DNA from: Methanosphaerula palustris E1-9c
GTDB lineage: Archaea > Halobacteriota > Methanomicrobia > Methanomicrobiales > Methanospirillaceae
Assembly (NCBI RefSeq): GCF_000021965.1
Contig: NC_011832.1
Span: 2,149,242-2,213,241, forward strand
Direction of reading: 5' to 3'
Length of the DNA stretch: 64,000 bases
Part shown: piece after piece, positions 12,016 to 21,464 of the stretch
Layout of the letters: every line of letters begins with the position of its first letter
Position numbering within the stretch: position 1 is the first letter of the stretch
The notes under the pieces: generated by a model
What the model was told of the DNA's origin: nothing
The model's input: the letters and a program-made list of their open reading frames with translations, nothing else
Database searches by the model: none
Position numbers and translations under genes: made by a program

Positions 12016-12235
12016 CCGTGAGCAGGCCGCCGTCCAGGTCCTGCCCGGTGCGATCCCGATCGACGAGGTGAAGCCGATCGCCTCCGGCCTGCTCGGCCGG
12101 TGCTCGGTCTGCGGGCTGCAGGTCGCGACCTACTCCCATGCCGACAGCGGGACGGCGATCTGCTCCAGGTGTTATGAGAAACTGGTGCGGGAGCAGGTGG
12201 AGATCCGGTAGGGCCGGCTGTGGGTGAGGATGGGT
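12016..12235 (+). repeat. Primase-tail copy, single complete zinc ribbon
   Basis: From about 12016 the DNA reads REQAAVQVLPGAIPIDEVKP and on through CSVCGLQVATYSHADSG to the stop at 12211, nearly identical to the intact primase end. The bases after the stop (GGGCCGGCTGTGGGTGAGG) are also kept. Upstream of 12016 the match is lost. An open frame begins at 11993, but no start signal or upstream domain supports a separate gene. Confidence 0.8.
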
Positions 12236-12348
12236 TCACCGTGAATCCATCCATGACACAGGGCACCTCCCTGATCGAGTTCACCTGAAAGGATCCGCCC
12301 TGCATCATCTGATCGGGGTTTATATCCCGGCAGGAGATAGTCTTCATC

Positions 12349-12591
12349 ATGACACGCTGGCTCTGCAGGGCTGATCGCACGAACGCCGCGATCGTCAAGG
12401 AACGCCTCGTCCGGGGCGTGCCGGCCCTCTCATTCATCAAGAGCATGGTCATGTGGTCGGGTTCCATCCTCTCAACGACCGGTCCGAGCGCCGTGGAACT
12501 CACCGGACCATCAGTCCGGCTTGAGAAGTCGCTTCAGACCTGCTGGGAGCAGAACCAGGGGTATCTGAAGGCGCTCGGGGACGGGGTGTGA
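12349..12591 (+). pseudogene. EVE-domain gene with an internal deletion
   Basis: The first 25 or so residues (TRWLCRADRTNAAIVKERLV) match the EVE-domain gene at 18141, then the frame jumps to PALSFIK and MVMWSGSI near that gene's end. The junction is GTGCCGGC, which occurs in the longer gene at both 18210 and 18468. A 258-base in-frame deletion between these 8-base repeats explains the structure. The last 35 residues are unrelated. Without its middle the EVE fold cannot form. Confidence 0.8.
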
Positions 12592-12592
12592 C

Positions 12593-13657
12593 GTGAGCGA
12601 GGAGATGAGGGAGCCGGCCGGAGGTTTGTCCGAGTTTCTTCTCTACCAGACCGAAGGGGGCGAGACCCGTGTCCAGGTCAGCCTGTTCGAGGGGACGGTC
12701 TGGCTGACGCAGCGGTTGATCGCCGAGTTGTATCAGAAATCGATCAAGACAATCAACGAGCATATCAAAAACATCTACGAGGAGCGGGAACTCGACCCCC
12801 AAGCAACTATCCGGAAATTCCGGATAGTTCAACTGGAGGGTGACCGCCAGGTCGAGCGTCTGGTGGACTTCTACAACCTCGATATGATCCTTGCCGTGGG
12901 CTACCGGGTGCGGTCGCACAGGGGGACCCAATTTCGACAGTGGGCGACGAAGCAACTGCGGGAATATGTGGTGAAGGGTTTTGTCCTGGACGATGAGCGC
13001 CTGAAGGAGGCCGGCGGGATCGGGAGGGACTACTTCGACGAACTTCTGGAGCGGATCCGTGACATCAGGGCGTCGGAGAGGCGGTTCTACCAGAAGATTA
13101 CTGATATCTATGCGACGAGCGTCGACTATGATCCGAAAGACCCGATGACACTTGAGTTCTTCAAGACGGTACAGAACAAGATGCACTGGGCGATCCACGG
13201 GCATACGGCGGCTGAGACGATATTCCTCCGGGCTGATGCGAGGAAGCCGCACATGGGGCTGACGACCTGGAAACAGGGGCCGAAAGGGCGGATCCACAAG
13301 ACCGATGTGGGGGTTGCGAAGAACTACCTGACCAGGGAAGAGATCTCAAACCTGAACCTGATCGTGAACCAGTATCTCGACTTCGCTGAGTTTCAGGCCC
13401 GCCAGCGCCGGGAGATGAGGATGGAGGACTGGATCAGGAAACTGGATGGTTTTATTCAGTTGAATGACCGGAACGTTCTCAAAAACGCCGGGAGTATTTC
13501 GGCAGAAAGGGCGAAGCAGAAGGCGCAGAAGGAGTTTGAGGGGTCTGAAGCGCAGCGCCGTATCAAGGAGGCGAGCGAGCCGACAAGCGACTTCGACCTG
13601 ATGGTCGACGAGGTTACGTATCTCTCCAAGAAGCAGGAGGACGAAGATGAAGTCTGA
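12593..13657 (+). CDS. RhuM-family protein, 354 aa
   Basis: This is a member of the RhuM (virulence protein) family, cytoplasmic proteins of unknown activity found in genomic islands. Visible hallmarks are an N-terminal region with VSLFEGTVWLTQRLIAELYQ, then KTINEHIKNIYEERELDP and a central FRQWATKQLREYVVKGFVLDD. The C-terminal part includes QNKMHWAIHGHTAAE, with charged helices after it. The length is typical. It starts with GTG two bases after the preceding frame ends, with GGGGTG as ribosome site. Its last bases overlap a SIR2/DUF1016 fusion remnant. Confidence 0.85.
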   Translation: MSEEMREPAGGLSEFLLYQTEGGETRVQVSLFEGTVWLTQRLIAELYQKSIKTINEHIKNIYEERELDPQATIRKFRIVQLEGDRQVERLVDFYNLDMILAVGYRVRSHRGTQFRQWATKQLREYVVKGFVLDDERLKEAGGIGRDYFDELLERIRDIRASERRFYQKITDIYATSVDYDPKDPMTLEFFKTVQNKMHWAIHGHTAAETIFLRADARKPHMGLTTWKQGPKGRIHKTDVGVAKNYLTREEISNLNLIVNQYLDFAEFQARQRREMRMEDWIRKLDGFIQLNDRNVLKNAGSISAERAKQKAQKEFEGSEAQRRIKEASEPTSDFDLMVDEVTYLSKKQEDEDEV

Positions 13658-13874: not shown

Positions 13875-13918
13875 CATAGGACGGGGTTCGGGCGACGGTT
13901 GGTTATGGGGTGTGAGTG

Positions 13919-15274
13919 ATGAGTTCGGTTGAGAACATACGGCGTATTGAAGAGATCCGGAAAACCAAGACAGAAAGGGATACAATCATTCAAAATGCCC
14001 TGGCATGCCGGACATTGCAAGATGGAAAAATCGTCGTGAAAGGAGAATCCAATCTGCAGCAGAAGGTGCTTAACGATGCCATCCTGTCTTTTGAGGTGAT
14101 GGTGGCAGAAGGATACGAGCAACGGCTTGACAAAATTTGCTACTCGTATCCTCCATCCGGTTCCTCCCCAATAACTGATTTCTCCCTCATTGAAGTCATG
14201 AAAAATCTGAAAGGGAGGAGGGCTTCGACATTTGCGGAATGTATGGAGGAGGTGGAGATAGAATATCGCAGGCTCGAGGAGTTACCACTCATCCGGTACG
14301 ACGTGTATATGGTTCTCAATGTTGTTCCGTTTGAAGACTTCCCAGCCTTGACCCTATCAATGGGGGATGCAACAGTTCAGATCAGGAGTACACAAGAACT
14401 TCGCACCGTTCTCTCCAACGAGGACGTTCTCGCGGAAAAACGGAAAATTGAACAAAAAGTTGGATTCCGCTACTCCCTTGATAATCGAATCTTCTTAACG
14501 GTGTCTCTACAGGCTAGAAACGCGTACTACGCAGGAAAAATTGCCATGGACCTCCGGGACTTCGTCCTCGCGCTTATCGATTTATCCAAGCACGAGCGCT
14601 CCATGCCGCTTCTGAGTAGCGGACCCATCGGTGCTATCGACAGCCTTAATTCGACGATTGGGTTCATCCTCGATGAGAATAATACCTACCACGATTTCTT
14701 TTATCAGTCGGAGAACCTCGATGATGTGACCATCTCAATAGATCGAGACGCCGTCATTGAGGCAACTGACAAATATTCACGTGCATCCACTGACGCCCAG
14801 CAAATTATCCAAAGAGCATTTTCGGCGTATCACCGAGGGATAACTGAGAAGAACCCATCTTTCGCGTTCATGTACTTCTGGTCAAGTCTCGAGCAGATCC
14901 TCTTGAAAGATGAAAATCTACGTCATCCAGACATGTTGAACCGGTTGTATCGTGTAGCTATAAATCCAAACTTACTTCATAAATTTGAGATTGGTCAGCT
15001 CCTCAAACTTCGAAATGCCCTCATCCATGACGCAGCATATCATAGGGTAGGACCCTATCACCGTAGCCTACTCAAACTTTTCACTGAACCAATACTTTGG
15101 TTCTTTCTGTATGACATCTCTGACTTCAATAAGGGACAACTTGATTTACTCTATAACAAATTCGGCTGCCACAAGAACGAATTCAAACGTCCGCGTGCGT
15201 CAGATGAAGAGGCAGCAGTGTATGCTCGAATAAAAAAGATCCGGGAATCTGCACCTCTGAAGGTTAGCAACTGA
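13919..15274 (+). CDS. ApeA-like HEPN-domain protein, 451 aa
   Basis: A large soluble protein. The N-terminal two thirds is not recognised. The C-terminal part looks like an Apea-type HEPN domain: AFMYFWSSLEQIL and then LRNALIHD, which supplies the RxxxxH motif of HEPN ribonucleases (Arg about 365, His about 370). ATG at 13919 is preferred to the adjacent in-frame GTG at 13916. It ends immediately before the DUF1016 gene, so the two are probably cotranscribed. HEPN proteins with this motif usually cut RNA in toxin or phage-defence systems, so an abortive-infection role is inferred. Base composition is lower in GC than its neighbours. Confidence 0.65.
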   Translation: MSSVENIRRIEEIRKTKTERDTIIQNALACRTLQDGKIVVKGESNLQQKVLNDAILSFEVMVAEGYEQRLDKICYSYPPSGSSPITDFSLIEVMKNLKGRRASTFAECMEEVEIEYRRLEELPLIRYDVYMVLNVVPFEDFPALTLSMGDATVQIRSTQELRTVLSNEDVLAEKRKIEQKVGFRYSLDNRIFLTVSLQARNAYYAGKIAMDLRDFVLALIDLSKHERSMPLLSSGPIGAIDSLNSTIGFILDENNTYHDFFYQSENLDDVTISIDRDAVIEATDKYSRASTDAQQIIQRAFSAYHRGITEKNPSFAFMYFWSSLEQILLKDENLRHPDMLNRLYRVAINPNLLHKFEIGQLLKLRNALIHDAAYHRVGPYHRSLLKLFTEPILWFFLYDISDFNKGQLDLLYNKFGCHKNEFKRPRASDEEAAVYARIKKIRESAPLKVSN

Positions 15275-15790
15275 ATGGAAAAAACCGCACTCCCATCTTC
15301 TACTGCCGAGAGTCACGATTATCAAAGCCTCCTCGCCGATCTCAAAACCCGGGTCCGCTCAGCCCAGGTCAAGGCCGCACTCTCGGTCAACCACGAACTG
15401 ATCCAGCTCTACTGGGAGATCGGCCGATCGATCCTCGCCGCCCAGGACCGGGAAGGGTGGGGGACGAAGGTGATCGACCGGCTGGCCGGCGATCTCCGCC
15501 ATGAGTTCCCGGAGATGAAGGGGTTCTCGCCCCGGAATCTGAAATATATGCGCCGGCTCGCCGAGGCCTGGCCCGACCCCTCAATTGTGCCACAGCCAGT
15601 GGCACAAATTCCGTGGGGCCACAACTGCATCCTGCTCGATAAGATTGGCGAGCCGGCACTGCGTGAATACTATAGTCGAAAACCTGATAATAATCAGGTT
15701 TTCTCGAAATCCGGTTCTCCCGTAAGGGAGAAACGGATCGCTGAGAGAAGGGAACTCGTAGTAAAACAAAAAGAAAAGACGGGGTTCTGA
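15275..15790 (+). pseudogene. DUF1016 (YhcG-type) nuclease, N-terminal half only
   Basis: The N-terminal domain is clear: ALSVNHELIQLYWEIGRSI, GWGTKVIDRLAGDL and FSPRNLKYMRRLAEAWP, then PWGHNCILLDK. Full family members are about 350 residues and carry a PD-(D/E)XK nuclease domain at the C-terminus. This one leaves the family after EPALREYYS and ends at residue 171 in a basic unrelated tail, so the nuclease is missing. It may still be translated as a binding domain. It abuts the HEPN gene. Confidence 0.75.
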
Positions 15791-16470: not shown

Positions 16471-16797
16471 ATGCAGGATGATATCCTCTCCATCTTAAAT
16501 GAATCCGAAGCGCTCAATGCGAAAGTCTTCTCGCTCGTCCGGCTGAAACTGCTCGCGAGCCTTGCAGCCCTCGGACGCGACGGGGCGACCTACCGTGAAC
16601 TCAAGGCGGCGCTCACAATTAATGACGGTGTTCTGTTTGCGAACCTCAATGTCCTCAAAGACATGGGGTATCTCACGTCAGAGAAGATCACCTCGGATGG
16701 GAAAGAACTCGAACTCTATACCATCACGCCCAACGGACAGGACGAATGGAAGCGAGTGAAAACCTGGCTGTGCAGGTTCCTCGGCTGTGGAGCATGA
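16471..16797 (+). CDS. Winged-helix transcriptional regulator, 108 aa
   Basis: A small ArsR/MarR-like DNA-binding protein. The helix-turn-helix is visible as LVRLKLLASLAALGRDGATY, then ELKAALTINDGVLFANLNVL, followed by a wing (SDGKELELYTITPNG) and a last helix. AAAGGAGGG lies 9 bases before the ATG. Its stop overlaps the next start as ATGA, so the antitoxin-like gene is translationally coupled. Palindromic AAGTAAAT repeats upstream suggest it controls the cassette. Confidence 0.75.
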   Translation: MQDDILSILNESEALNAKVFSLVRLKLLASLAALGRDGATYRELKAALTINDGVLFANLNVLKDMGYLTSEKITSDGKELELYTITPNGQDEWKRVKTWLCRFLGCGA

Positions 16798-17330
16798 CGA
16801 TGGAAAGACGGAAAAAAGTAATTGCCTTCTTCAGGGAACTGGGCTTTGCGATCGATATCTCACAGTTCGATGACCGGCTCATCGCCCAGAAACTCGTATG
16901 CCTGCTTGAACTCAGGGGTATCGATCTCGGATATCCCTGTAACATTCACGTGCGGGGACCGTATTCCCCGCCCCTGGCGGACGATCTGTTCGACTTCACG
17001 AACGAGTTCAGGAATCTGGAAACCGATCTTCAGCTCAAGCCAGCAGAGAAAGAGGCAGCACGCGACCTCGGCAGGATCTTCGGTCTCAAGCCGGTGCCTC
17101 TCGAAATCGGGGCAACGTATGGGTATTATACCAGGTGGCAGAAGAACGATCCGCTCGAAGCCCTCCGGCGGCTCAAACGACTCAAGCCGTTCTATTCAGA
17201 GACCCAGATTGCCCTCGGCATCTCCAAAGCAAATGAGTTTCTCTTCAGGCCCACTCCCGGCGACCTGGAAGAACTGAGCGAGGAGACCGGCATCTGGCAG
17301 CGGGCTTCATTAAAAACATGGGAGTCCTGA
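16794..17330 (+). CDS. YwgA/Panacea-like putative antitoxin, 178 aa
   Basis: The protein resembles the YwgA/Panacea type of antitoxin-associated proteins: QFDDRLIAQKLVCLLELRGI, then GYPCNIHVRGPYSPPLADDL, and a helical C-terminal half ending near ISKANEFLF. Start 16794 overlaps the regulator's stop; a second ATG lies at 16800. It sits directly before a MazF-type toxin gene, three bases apart, in the usual antitoxin-first order. Neutralisation of MazF is inferred from position. The family match is from memory and is moderate. Confidence 0.6.
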   Translation: MTMERRKKVIAFFRELGFAIDISQFDDRLIAQKLVCLLELRGIDLGYPCNIHVRGPYSPPLADDLFDFTNEFRNLETDLQLKPAEKEAARDLGRIFGLKPVPLEIGATYGYYTRWQKNDPLEALRRLKRLKPFYSETQIALGISKANEFLFRPTPGDLEELSEETGIWQRASLKTWES

Positions 17331-17333
17331 TCG

Positions 17334-17660
17334 ATGACGAGGGGCGATATCTGGCTTGTCGATCTCACCGACGCAAAAGGGCATGAGCAGCGAGGAACCC
17401 GTCCTGCAATTGTTGTGGGAGGTGCCAATGGCCTCACCCTCGTCGTCCCGCTGACCAGCACGATGAGCAGTGCCAGGTTCTCGCATACCTGTATCATCTC
17501 CCCGACCCGGCACAACGGCCTCGATGTCGATAGTGTCGCTCTCGTATTTCAGATCGTTGCTCTGGACAGGGCCCGATTCAGGCACCGAATCGGAGCCGTC
17601 GGTGAACCGCATCGGCTGGCAATCGTGGCCCTTATCCGCGACCTTCTGGGACTGGATTAA
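17334..17660 (+). CDS. MazF/PemK-family endoribonuclease toxin, 108 aa
   Basis: The family core is clear: RGDIWLVDLTDAKGHEQRGT, then RPAIVVGGANG and VVPLTSTM, with length typical of MazF. Members cut mRNA at short sequence motifs and stop growth. GGGAGTCC upstream acts as ribosome site. It closes a three-gene cassette with a winged-helix regulator and a YwgA-like protein, so the antitoxin is not the usual MazE type. Confidence 0.85.
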   Translation: MTRGDIWLVDLTDAKGHEQRGTRPAIVVGGANGLTLVVPLTSTMSSARFSHTCIISPTRHNGLDVDSVALVFQIVALDRARFRHRIGAVGEPHRLAIVALIRDLLGLD

Positions 17661-17675
17661 TATTTTCTGACCCAA

Positions 17676-17839
17676 TTGGCCGCTTCCATAGCAACGACAT
17701 CCACCCTCACAACACAGTCGACAAACACCGACACCTCGGCCCCGGTCTCTGTCTTCTCCACGCCAGCGTTGACGTACCATTGGAGGCATGGCAACGGCCG
17801 GTACCATCCGATCTCTGTGCTTAACGTGAGCCAGAGAGG
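17676..17839 (+). pseudogene. Lipoprotein remnant, first copy
   Basis: This segment reads TNTDTSAPVSVFSTPALTY and, after compensating frameshifts, TIGGMATAGTI and VLNVSQRGS. It matches the remnant at 21754-21962 (TNSDTSAPISVISTPATTY, TLGGTTAGTL, VLNVGQEGS). The signal peptide is lost here. It is fused at GGATCC to a primase-tail copy, exactly as in the other remnant. Confidence 0.6.
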
Positions 17840-18025
17840 ATCCCGCTCGACGAGGTCATACCGATCGATACCGGCCTCTTCGGGCGGTGCTCGGTCTGCG
17901 GGCTTCAGGTTGCGGGGTATCTGCTTGCCGGCAGCGGGACGGCGATCTGCTCGGTCTGTTATGAGAAACTAGTGAGGGAGCAGGTGGATATTCGGTAGGG
18001 CCGGCTGTGGTTGAGGTGGAGGATT
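17840..18025 (+). repeat. Primase-tail copy before the intact EVE gene
   Basis: The frame reads IPLDEVIPIDTGLFGRCSVC and on to CSVCYEKLVREQVDIR, stop at 17998, then GGGCCGGCTGTGG. The region between this copy and the EVE gene is similar to the region between the 12 kb copy and its EVE remnant, so tail and EVE were duplicated together. Confidence 0.8.
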
Positions 18026-18140
18026 AGTTTACCGATAAGTAGTCCTGTGACATGAAGCACTTCCAAGATCGAGTTCAACGGAGGAGATTATCGGAATTAT
18101 CTGATAGGGTTTGATATTCTTGCAGGAGAGAATGTTCTTC

Positions 18141-18584
18141 ATGACACGCTGGCTCTGCATGGCCGATCGCACGAACGCCGCTATCGTAAAAGAGCGCCTC
18201 GTCTGGGGTGTGCCGGCTCGGTACCGGAATACAATCGGCAGGGTACATCCCGGCGACACGCTCCTGATCTATGCCCGGCAGGAGCACGCCGCCGGCGAGA
18301 CCCTCCCCTCCATCGTCATGGCCGCCTATGATGTCGTCTCCCCGGTCTTCGAGGACACAGAGCCCATCTTCACGGCGCCGGCCTTTCTCCCTGGCGAGGT
18401 CTTCCCAATGCGAGTGAAGGTAAAACCCCTGCCGGATATCAGCGAGCCGGTCCCGTTCAAACCACTCGTGCCGGCCCTCTCATTCATCAAGAACAAGGTC
18501 ATGTGGTCGGGATCCATCCGAGCCATGCGGACGATCCCGGAAGAGGATTATCAGCGGATCGTCGCCGGGGGCAAAGGAAACTGA
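18141..18584 (+). CDS. EVE-domain protein, 147 aa
   Basis: EVE (PUA-like) proteins bind modified bases in DNA or RNA and often accompany defence nucleases. Here the opening TRWLCMADRTNAAIVKERLV, the central HPGDTLLIYARQEH, and the closing PLVPALSFIKNKVMWSG are all typical. I take ATG 18141 because the decayed copy at 12349 aligns from the same codon; ATG 18132 is also possible. GCAGGAGAG lies upstream. It stands alone, without a nuclease partner, just before the TIGR04255 operon. Confidence 0.8.
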   Translation: MTRWLCMADRTNAAIVKERLVWGVPARYRNTIGRVHPGDTLLIYARQEHAAGETLPSIVMAAYDVVSPVFEDTEPIFTAPAFLPGEVFPMRVKVKPLPDISEPVPFKPLVPALSFIKNKVMWSGSIRAMRTIPEEDYQRIVAGGKGN

Positions 18585-18698: not shown

Positions 18699-18720
18699 AA
18701 TAATATATGAACTTGTGATC
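18699..18720 (+). promoter_or_regulatory. Likely TATA box of the TIGR04255 operon
   Basis: AATAATATATG around 18699-18709 lies so close to the ATG at 18721 that the transcript would begin at or next to it. No ribosome site is seen, which fits a leaderless mRNA. Confidence 0.4.
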
Positions 18721-19458
18721 ATGACCCAGTACAGTTCTCCACCAGTCGTTGAGGTGGTCTGTGAATTTCGTTTCTCTTCGAAGACAGAGTGGAACGACAC
18801 CCTCGCAGATCGTTTTCACAAGGCTGTTCAAGAGACCTTTCCCGAGCGTGACCGGATTGTAGAGCACCAATTCGAATTCGAGGTCACTCCGGATAAATCC
18901 CAATCGAAGAACGGCAAGAGGGAACGACCGGTCTTTCTGACCCAAAACCGGCGAATGTTCATACAATTCGGAGAGCGGATCGTCTCAATCCATTGTTTGA
19001 AACCGTATCCGTCCTGGGAAAAGTTCCGGCCGATCATTGAACAGGTCTACGGAGCACTTTCTAAGGTGACCGAGATCAAAGGGGTCGACCGGATCGGCTT
19101 ACTCTATGTCGACAAGATCGAGATCCCGGGAACCGAGATCGATCTCACAGAATACTTTGGGTTCAGACCGGTCATTAAGGGATATAAACCAGAATCATTT
19201 GTGAACTTCCTGGTGGGTGTCGATCTTCCGTTTTCCGGGCAACGAGATCTCTGCCGACTTCAGTTGATGCGGGCTGTAGCAGAAAGAGAGGGCTATAGTG
19301 CCTTTTTGCTGACCACTGATTACTTCCTCCGAAATCAGGAGGGAATCCTTCCCGATGAGGTTCTGACCTGGCTTGAAGAGGCCCACGCCACGATAAGAAA
19401 TATCTTCCTCAATTGTATCACCGGTAAACTCGAGAAGATCTTCAACGGAGAAGTCTGA
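18721..19458 (+). CDS. TIGR04255-family protein, 245 aa
   Basis: The family is widespread but sporadic and has no known function. The start at 18721 gives the usual opening YSSPPVVEVVCEFRF. GKRERPVFLTQNRRMFIQFG and VDRIGLLYVDKIEI in the middle are typical, and the C-terminus ends in a helical EEAHATIRNIF segment. The open frame reaches back to 18586, but that part is AT-rich promoter-like DNA. No signal peptide or membrane span is present. It is the first gene of a tight three-gene operon with an unknown protein and a HEPN-like protein. Confidence 0.75.
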   Translation: MTQYSSPPVVEVVCEFRFSSKTEWNDTLADRFHKAVQETFPERDRIVEHQFEFEVTPDKSQSKNGKRERPVFLTQNRRMFIQFGERIVSIHCLKPYPSWEKFRPIIEQVYGALSKVTEIKGVDRIGLLYVDKIEIPGTEIDLTEYFGFRPVIKGYKPESFVNFLVGVDLPFSGQRDLCRLQLMRAVAEREGYSAFLLTTDYFLRNQEGILPDEVLTWLEEAHATIRNIFLNCITGKLEKIFNGEV

Positions 19459-19459
19459 T

Positions 19460-20005
19460 ATGTTAAATTCATCTATGACGCCGTTTTCGACAGTTATCCC
19501 ATGCTCGCACCCGGCAAGATCTGGCTGGAATGATTCCCCTGCTTCCTTAATAGATAGGGCTATTAATTGGCTCTTTGGTGGTACTTCGATTGATAAGCAT
19601 TCCATTGTCTCAGAACAATCCTATGATATACGTAACGCAACTGCAAGTGATAATTCATTAATCGAGCCCTTACTCTTCGCGCTTTTCGAGAACCAGAAGT
19701 TCAATCTGATACAGTCTGGAGATGTAGTGGGGTATTTGCAACGATATCTGGGGATGTATTGGCCCTTGATAGTAGCGTGCCATCTGATCTCCAAGGAGTT
19801 TCAGAACGAAGGAACCTTCTCACTGGAGGTCTACCACGACCCCGAGGGGCATGATGAATACCTCATGCTGACGGTGCGGCAGTACCACTACACGGACGAC
19901 CTGCTTGGTCGTATCGAGAGGGTGAGCGATCTGGTTCGGCCATTTCTACAAGGAGAGTCCGGCTGGCTCCTGATTACTACCGATTTTCAATCCGTCGGGA
20001 TATAA
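19460..20005 (+). CDS. Hypothetical partner of the TIGR04255 protein, 181 aa
   Basis: I do not recognise a named family. The C-terminal half looks ordered: FSLEVYHDPEGHDEYLMLTV, then DDLLGRIERVSDLVRPFL and SGWLLITTDF. The first 60 residues look loosely structured. It starts one base after the TIGR04255 stop, and its stop overlaps the HEPN start as TAATG, so all three products are probably made together and may form a complex. Confidence 0.6.
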   Translation: MLNSSMTPFSTVIPCSHPARSGWNDSPASLIDRAINWLFGGTSIDKHSIVSEQSYDIRNATASDNSLIEPLLFALFENQKFNLIQSGDVVGYLQRYLGMYWPLIVACHLISKEFQNEGTFSLEVYHDPEGHDEYLMLTVRQYHYTDDLLGRIERVSDLVRPFLQGESGWLLITTDFQSVGI

Positions 20006-20391
20006 TGCAGAAAATCTTCTCCTGGGAACAGTTTATTGATATCGCCCAATTCCTTGTGCAGGAAACCAAAAAACTGGACAGTGCCATTCCAGATGAGGCC
20101 GCGTACAGATGCGCCATCAGCCGGTCCTATTATGCCGCCTTCTGTTGTGCTCTTGAATTTGCAGAGGATGAGCTCGGTTACAATTCAGAAAGAGCAGGAA
20201 CAGACCATACCAAATTGCGGAATTTTATGAAAGTACAAAAAGATGATACCATGGTAAAGATTGCAGGAAAACTCGATCAGTTACGAGGCTGGAGAAATAC
20301 AAGCGATTACAATGCGCTGAAAAATATCCCATTAATAATGGCTGAAAATGCCATTCTTCAAGCACAAGAGATTGTAAAACTCACACGATGA
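20005..20391 (+). CDS. HEPN-like domain protein, 128 aa
   Basis: An all-helical HEPN-type protein: EAAYRCAISRSYYAAFCCAL forms the first helix pair and LDQLRGWRNTSDYN the conserved late helix. The arginine-containing motif ends in SDY and lacks the histidine of active RxxxxH HEPN nucleases. It may therefore be a binding or regulatory HEPN, like those paired with nucleotidyltransferases. No nucleotidyltransferase gene is adjacent. Its start overlaps the previous stop. Confidence 0.65.
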   Translation: MQKIFSWEQFIDIAQFLVQETKKLDSAIPDEAAYRCAISRSYYAAFCCALEFAEDELGYNSERAGTDHTKLRNFMKVQKDDTMVKIAGKLDQLRGWRNTSDYNALKNIPLIMAENAILQAQEIVKLTR

Positions 20392-20537: not shown

Positions 20538-21464
20538 ATGCCTCCAAAAGTGCTTCGAGATTTTATCTATCTTGATGTTGAGAGATTAAAATCGATAATT
20601 GCCCAAATCGAGGGAGGTGTGATAAATACTCAGCAAGACTCTCGGCAGGAGAGTGATGAGCTCACAGCAAGTGTTGAAGGGGGGATATTGGGCTTTCTTC
20701 GAGGAGTGGTTGGAGGTAAGTATCTTCTGGAGAATCAGGAGACATCTACCAAGACATTGCATGATGATATTTTCAATAAAGTTGAGCAATTTTTAATTAA
20801 TACTGAATATCTAGTAAGGATTCCCGATGATTATGATATCAAAAGTGACAATGTTAATTTGAGAGAAGACCTAACCGACAATTGGTTTGTTCTGATTAAT
20901 GGAAGGGTTAATATTAATGATTATAATCGGATGAGAGATTCATTAAGTAATTATAATAATCTTGCAACTCTTATCTCGCAATTTTCAATTGACGCACAAA
21001 AACCAGCACTGACAAAAAAAGATAAAGTTAAAAAAATGGGGGAGATAAAAAGAGAACTAGCTCAAAACGAAGAATCTATTAAGGGGCTGACACTGTTTTT
21101 TGATATTTTTTATAAGAATAGAATCGTCATAAAAATATTTCCGTATGAAGGAAATAGTAAAATTAGATTTTCAGGAAATATTAATCCCGTTTATCTGAGA
21201 GAAGATATCGCGAGTATTATCTACAAGTATGGGACAGCTCCAACCTCAAATTGGCAAATATTTGCCCAAATCGCTTCAATCCCTCCTGCTGATCGCTCGA
21301 ATCTATCCCCTGAAATTGATGAGGATACACTTGAGGCAAAATTACATTCAATATTCAACGTGTTTCGAGGTATCGAAGTGCTTACAGAATCTGTAGTCTA
21401 CCCAGAAATTGCTATCACACCCATCGCAATCTACAGAGAAGTATCCATTAGGACAAAAAAATAA
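20538..21464 (+). CDS. DUF6414-like protein, 308 aa
   Basis: The opening RDFIYLDVERLKSIIAQIEG resembles DUF6414-type proteins, whose function is unknown. The middle has a conserved-looking NWFVLINGRVNINDYNRM and a lysine-rich helix. No signal peptide or membrane span is seen, apart from a glycine-rich LGFLRGVVGGK stretch near residue 55. The gene is strikingly AT-rich compared with everything around it, and MITE-like palindromes flank it at both ends. Recent transfer as a cassette is likely. The family call is from memory and moderate. Confidence 0.55.
   Translation: MPPKVLRDFIYLDVERLKSIIAQIEGGVINTQQDSRQESDELTASVEGGILGFLRGVVGGKYLLENQETSTKTLHDDIFNKVEQFLINTEYLVRIPDDYDIKSDNVNLREDLTDNWFVLINGRVNINDYNRMRDSLSNYNNLATLISQFSIDAQKPALTKKDKVKKMGEIKRELAQNEESIKGLTLFFDIFYKNRIVIKIFPYEGNSKIRFSGNINPVYLREDIASIIYKYGTAPTSNWQIFAQIASIPPADRSNLSPEIDEDTLEAKLHSIFNVFRGIEVLTESVVYPEIAITPIAIYREVSIRTKK

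Follow-up and report, generated by a model that had tools for sequence, protein, structure and literature searches.

A conserved three-gene cassette in Methanosphaerula palustris E1-9c as a candidate three-component toxin-antitoxin module of the TIGR04255 family

Three adjacent genes in the archaeal genome of Methanosphaerula palustris E1-9c (2.92 Mb, with a single TIGR04255 gene) form a tight operon, and the order of these genes is conserved far beyond chance in archaea and bacteria. The balance of the evidence leans towards a three-component toxin-antitoxin (TA) module, most likely antiviral, in which a HEPN-domain protein would serve as effector, the middle protein as its antitoxin and a TIGR04255 family protein as third component. 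The operon was analysed within a stretch of 64,000 nucleotides, referred to as the window.

The operon, its surroundings and its conservation

The genes, here named g1, g2 and g3, are listed in Table 1. A single base separates g1 from g2, and g2 and g3 are joined by a TAATG overlap; rechecking of start and stop codons showed that the earlier note had given the coordinates and junctions of the three genes correctly. The best TATA-like stretch, AATAATATATG, lies at about 18699-18709, with its centre only ~17 nt 5' of the g1 start codon, so that the leaderless promoter suggested in the earlier note is no more than possible. Scans for sigma-70-type promoters and terminators, hardly informative for archaeal DNA, returned nothing above chance. 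With 42-50% G+C the cassette is A+T-richer than the whole window (56%).

Table 1. Features of the three-gene operon in the window and examples of the QSCDL family in other loci
Feature	Position	Strand	Remarks
g1, TIGR04255 family protein, 245 aa	18721..19458	+	ATG 18721, stop TGA 19456-19458
g2, predicted antitoxin, 181 aa	19460..20005	+	ATG 19460, stop TAA 20003-20005
g2 N-terminal extension (~residues 1-63), probably disordered; proposed TIGR04255-docking part	19460..19648	+	residues 1-70 of homologue L056 have pLDDT 35-66
g2 conserved alpha/beta core (~residues 64-181), proposed HEPN-neutralising part	19649..20005	+	matches L056 residues 71-188, mostly pLDDT >90
g3, HEPN-domain protein, 128 aa; predicted toxin/effector	20005..20391	+	ATG 20005, stop 20389-20391
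H68 codon of the HEPN protein	20206..20208	+	invariant in 57 homologues
R97-NTS-D101-Y102 codons, variant HEPN motif without the RX4-6H histidine	20293..20310	+	R97 and Y102 invariant, D101 >=90% (57 homologues)
QSCDL family examples, with relatives	L034:2672-3205; L117:2500-3030; L124:11209-11952		third gene after TIGR04255

The EVE gene that had been placed upstream of the operon is real (18141-18584; PF01878, E 2e-15). Parts of it occur in two diverged segment copies (83-94%) at 12052-12469 and 17839-18519, the upstream copy being truncated. The genes sampled around related cassettes, whether close to them or distant, included no EVE homologue. Both EVE and the DUF6414 protein encoded just 3' of the operon (20538-21464, 36% G+C; PF19952, E 8e-34) were rejected as members of the system, as neither has a homologue near related cassettes. 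About 1 kb 5' of the operon lies a PemK/MazF-like toxin gene (17334-17660; PF02452, E 3.4e-21); a 194-aa gene without family match (16746-17330) ends within 4 bases of it, and the two constitute a second TA-like pair. Candidate defence genes in the window are a RhuM-family gene (PADLOC PDC-S05; 12593-13657) and a short DUF1016 N-terminal gene (PDC-S02; 15275-15790). The stretch 13916-15274 encodes a 452-aa protein with no Pfam match, whose C-terminal LRNALIHD resembles, by eye only, an active HEPN RX4-6H motif.

The g1 alignment was scanned against 84,980 species genomes and 80 loci were kept, after which iterative profiles were used. In about 58 of the 80 loci, a count biased to the HEPN version by a scan seeded with the TIGR04255 of the HEPN module, g2 and/or the HEPN gene stood directly 3' of TIGR04255 in the same order, and never elsewhere in the loci. 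In 63 of 65 cassettes neither gap exceeded 20 nt. The named hosts of HEPN-type cassettes belong to at least 20 phyla, and the iterative profiles also recovered the module from a Thermus plasmid. No hits were obtained in the plasmids searched with g2 or in the phages searched with g1, and three IMG/VR relatives are distant. Surveys of four phyla with the TIGR04255 model found the family in 43 of 295, 19 of 251, 23 of 244 and 24 of 299 genomes. Within the phylum of 295 genomes, g2 was present in only eight; seven complete g1-g2-HEPN triplets besides that of the window were identical in order. Broken copies also occur.

Of 57 HEPN-type loci, seven have a type III Mod directly upstream of the cassette. 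Six of the seven also carry a Res immediately downstream, although the sixth Res is truncated where its contig ends; the mod-cassette-res arrangement is seen in six loci. A downstream gene of ~850-970 aa, which is either the type III Res or some other neighbouring gene, was rejected as a fourth component. Several further HEPN-type loci are bordered by type IIG and type I genes, and cassettes with the QSCDL family described below also lie inside type III operons (L117, L119). The 106 adjacent genes include seven matches to N6_N4_Mtase and seven to ResIII, and the commonest PADLOC models were matched by 4-7 adjacent genes each versus at most two genes at a distance of 6 kb or more. About three quarters of the 57 cassettes do not adjoin the restriction-modification genes searched for. 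The earlier note had proposed a candidate undescribed defence or TA system that should keep the order of its three genes across genomes and be enriched next to known defence genes, and had named a lack of conserved order or consistent housekeeping contexts as evidence to the contrary. The proposal stands: conserved order and defence-gene adjacency were both observed, and neither of the contrary results was encountered for this cassette.

The three proteins

The g1 protein is a clear member of NCBIfam TIGR04255 (E 9e-40, 137.1 bits at a curated cut-off of 30), which NCBIfam describes as a 'sporadic' family of unknown function present across bacteria and archaea. There was no mention of TIGR04255 in the literature searched; a family previously without assigned role is here common to three-gene TA-like cassettes. 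The AlphaFold2 model (pLDDT 91, pTM 0.87) is TBP-like/helix-grip and comprises two similar halves, of which the first is beta-alpha-beta4-alpha and the second is shorter. In Foldseek searches the nearest solved folds were TATA-binding proteins (E ~2e-3, probability up to 0.99), a weak match with TM ~0.3 and rmsd ~10 Å. Two viral proteins scored better, one of them unnamed (E 6e-6) and the other a TBP (E 8e-4). The assignment of TIGR04255 as a SecB by fold is unsupported, as TBP was matched instead and SecB was absent from the sequence search and from the best 50 structural matches. TIGR04255 proteins are acidic in every cassette class (median pI 5.1-5.8; g1 pI 5.7), and protein binding is therefore favoured over DNA binding. 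Their most conserved residues are aromatic, proline or acidic and do not make up a basic surface. One related genus has TIGR04255 genes that stand alone, with no recognised TA partner, in many of its genomes (L024-L033), and their products are fairly close to g1.

No match to g2 was found in Pfam, NCBIfam or PADLOC, and its core has no recognisable fold in the PDB. The protein is strongly acidic (pI 4.8; median of the homologues 4.6). Its N-terminal extension is rich in S, T, G, N, Q and P, poor in acidic residues and disorder-prone; a SecB-type aromatic/basic motif was rejected for this region on account of its acid depletion and disorder-promoting residues and the lack of aromatic/basic enrichment. 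Gene-2 proteins of all toxin classes (HEPN, PIN, PemK and QSCDL) have a disorder-prone composition over their first 35 residues.

The extension is associated with the presence of TIGR04255. A median of 64.5 residues precedes the g2 core where TIGR04255 is present, and two-gene g2-HEPN pairs without any upstream partner mostly have a g2 of 110-130 aa with at most 12 residues before the core. Pairs of g2 and HEPN without TIGR04255 occur in some cyanobacteria and Chloroflexota. Over all loci without detected g1 the difference in g2 length was significant but modest (p=0.011), because this set includes extended cyanobacterial g2 cases, truncated copies and two loci with a TIGR04255 too diverged for detection. 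Some cyanobacteria without TIGR04255 have an extended g2 that follows a different upstream protein. In L221 (1848-2531), L225, L227 and L232 a different protein of ~230 aa (TDVRPIF...ALVVHTLKIEYQ) precedes the extended g2 and HEPN, and may be a replacement third component in the place of TIGR04255. The relative L241 encodes a fusion of the g2 core with an XRE-type HTH (HTH_3, E 2e-13), and HEPN follows downstream. This is a classic antitoxin build; such a DNA-binding domain is absent from the g2 of the window.

The g3 protein belongs to the HEPN superfamily by its family profile and not by its single sequence, which stayed below the cut-off of Pfam HEPN PF05168 (E 0.018, 15.6 bits of 22). The profile matches the solved HEPN proteins 9xbd (E 2.5e-9) and 9xbc as well as a retron HEPN and the UPF0332 protein AF0298 (2hsb, E 0.0025). 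PADLOC HEPN_IX was matched by 35 of 57 g3 homologues, and a weak profile similarity links the g3 HEPN to PADLOC PDC-M05B. The catalytic histidine, reported as missing in the earlier note, is indeed lacking: in place of the HEPN ribonuclease motif RX4-6H the protein has R97-NTS-D101-Y102, with an invariant tyrosine in 57 homologues where histidine is expected. Invariant in the same 57 homologues are R35, R40, Y42, H68, R97 and Y102, at a mean column identity of 30%. Ribonuclease activity may be predicted at most, the RX4-6H motif being absent yet six residues invariant. The HEPN homologues are mostly basic (pI 8.7), and the HEPN of the window is near neutral (pI 5.8).

Exchange of partners and comparison with known systems

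Other TIGR04255 genes keep the layout of TIGR04255, small middle gene and third gene but swap the pair. Third genes above the Pfam cut-off were PIN in five representatives and PemK/MazF in one, and the PIN domains behind TIGR04255 are of several kinds. Among 181 distinct TIGR04255 genes, profiles assigned 67 to HEPN, 29 to QSCDL/QHPC, 12 to PIN and 2 to PemK, with 58 lacking an assigned partner class; three more PIN cases were found outside the profile-assigned classes. Further undescribed pairs also stand behind TIGR04255. In about 29 loci the third gene behind TIGR04255 belongs to an undescribed family marked by the motif QSCDL...PPYREHLSQAFARFFMRVGLP; the family matches nothing in Pfam or NCBIfam and is likely a new family of toxins or effectors. 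The type of third gene changes at least 15 times on the TIGR04255 tree, the minimum possible being 5. At least three (HEPN), five (QSC) and five (PIN) partner changes are required by well-supported branches.

In TAC systems SecB serves unrelated HigA, MqsA and HicB antitoxins with variable extensions (PMC5105189). CmdTAC is an anti-phage defence that a virus can trigger by occupying the chaperone (PMC11618068). The cassette resembles TAC (HigBA-SecB, CmdTAC) in that an operonic TA pair and a third protein, combined with unrelated antitoxin and toxin families, share one operon; the TA nature of the pair follows from Pfam for PIN and PemK, and we infer it for HEPN. In both cases three-part antitoxins are longer than their two-part relatives by an extension that varies in length and sequence. 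Unlike in TAC, the third protein is TBP-like, it is encoded by the first and not the last gene, the antitoxin extension is N-terminal instead of C-terminal, and the toxins would be HEPN, PIN and PemK. The module is not TAC by membership because no recognisable SecB homologue is present.

A small HEPN protein in a pair is also found in HEPN-MNT (HepT/MntA) and PADLOC PDC-M05, which consists of a nucleotidyltransferase, PDC-M05A (PMC12988326), and a HEPN protein. In contrast to these, the present cassette has no nucleotidyltransferase and no RX4HXY motif, and the HEPN partner is the g2 fold, plus TIGR04255. Membership in HEPN-MNT or PDC-M05 was rejected, as no nucleotidyltransferase is adjacent and g2 matches no family.

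In omega-epsilon-zeta and paaR-paaA-parE an extra first gene, coding for a separate regulator, is followed by the antitoxin and then the toxin. TIGR04255 differs from these regulators in being acidic and in having no HTH; the toxins also differ, and one third-component family serves many toxins.

Proposed function and alternative explanations

Gene position, acid/base polarity and the analogy to PIN and PemK make it more likely that the HEPN protein acts as effector and g2 as its antitoxin. On the same grounds the role of antitoxin or scaffold, which the earlier note had suggested for the HEPN protein, was judged less likely. In the mechanism proposed here, TIGR04255 would bind g2 at its N-terminal extension, which is probably disordered, and render the antitoxin stable or competent. 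If TIGR04255 were titrated or lost, e.g. by a viral product, the antitoxin would fail and HEPN would act. One TIGR04255 component combined with unrelated antitoxin-toxin pairs (PIN, PemK/MazF, undescribed ones) would then work in a TAC-like manner. Counted against this model are the missing RX4-6H motif of HEPN, the lack of SecB among the 50 best structural matches of TIGR04255, the gene order unlike that of TAC, the stand-alone TIGR04255 genes, the extended g2 proteins without TIGR04255, the modest difference in g2 length over all loci without detected g1 and the near-neutral HEPN of the window.

It is unlikely that TIGR04255 is instead a separate transcriptional repressor that would bind operator DNA via a TBP-like saddle and use the antitoxin extension as co-repressor arm. 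The gene order regulator-antitoxin-toxin and a fold closest to TBP would fit such a protein, and the HTH of the solo antitoxin in L241 suggests that TIGR04255-type antitoxins are without DNA binding of their own; the acidity of TIGR04255 in every class, the character of its conserved residues and the weakness of the TBP match nevertheless argue against a DNA-binding saddle. Rather improbable is a non-toxic accessory complex of restriction-modification, e.g. a regulator or assembly factor, with HEPN as a dead scaffold. The lack of the RX4-6H histidine and the repeated position between mod and res are consistent with it, but most of the cassettes stand apart from the restriction-modification genes searched for, the six invariant HEPN residues are unlike a pure scaffold, and bona fide toxin families take the place of the third gene elsewhere. 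As for a housekeeping operon with no tie to conflict, the stand-alone TIGR04255 genes common in one related genus would agree with it; the sporadic spread of TIGR04255 and g2 within one phylum and across many phyla, the broken copies, the exchange of partners and the embedding in restriction-modification operons make it very improbable.

The three-component TA module thus remains the preferred reading. As a tentative extension, which we hold to be possible though somewhat doubtful as a whole, TIGR04255 would found a new class of TA defence under the control of a chaperone or sensor that is TBP-like, unrelated to SecB and plugged onto many unrelated antitoxin-toxin pairs via the disordered antitoxin N-terminus in archaea and bacteria. 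It would act as a second line of defence inside restriction-modification operons, the HEPN form with a new RX3DY active site.

If the proposed role holds, the TIGR04255 genes found sporadically in bacteria and archaea would be explained at once as a common component of three-part TA modules. This role would also point to several undescribed toxin families, notably QSCDL, and would show that control of toxins by a third component has also evolved without SecB. Having one g2-HEPN core in both a two-gene and a three-gene form would represent a natural experiment on antitoxin addiction.
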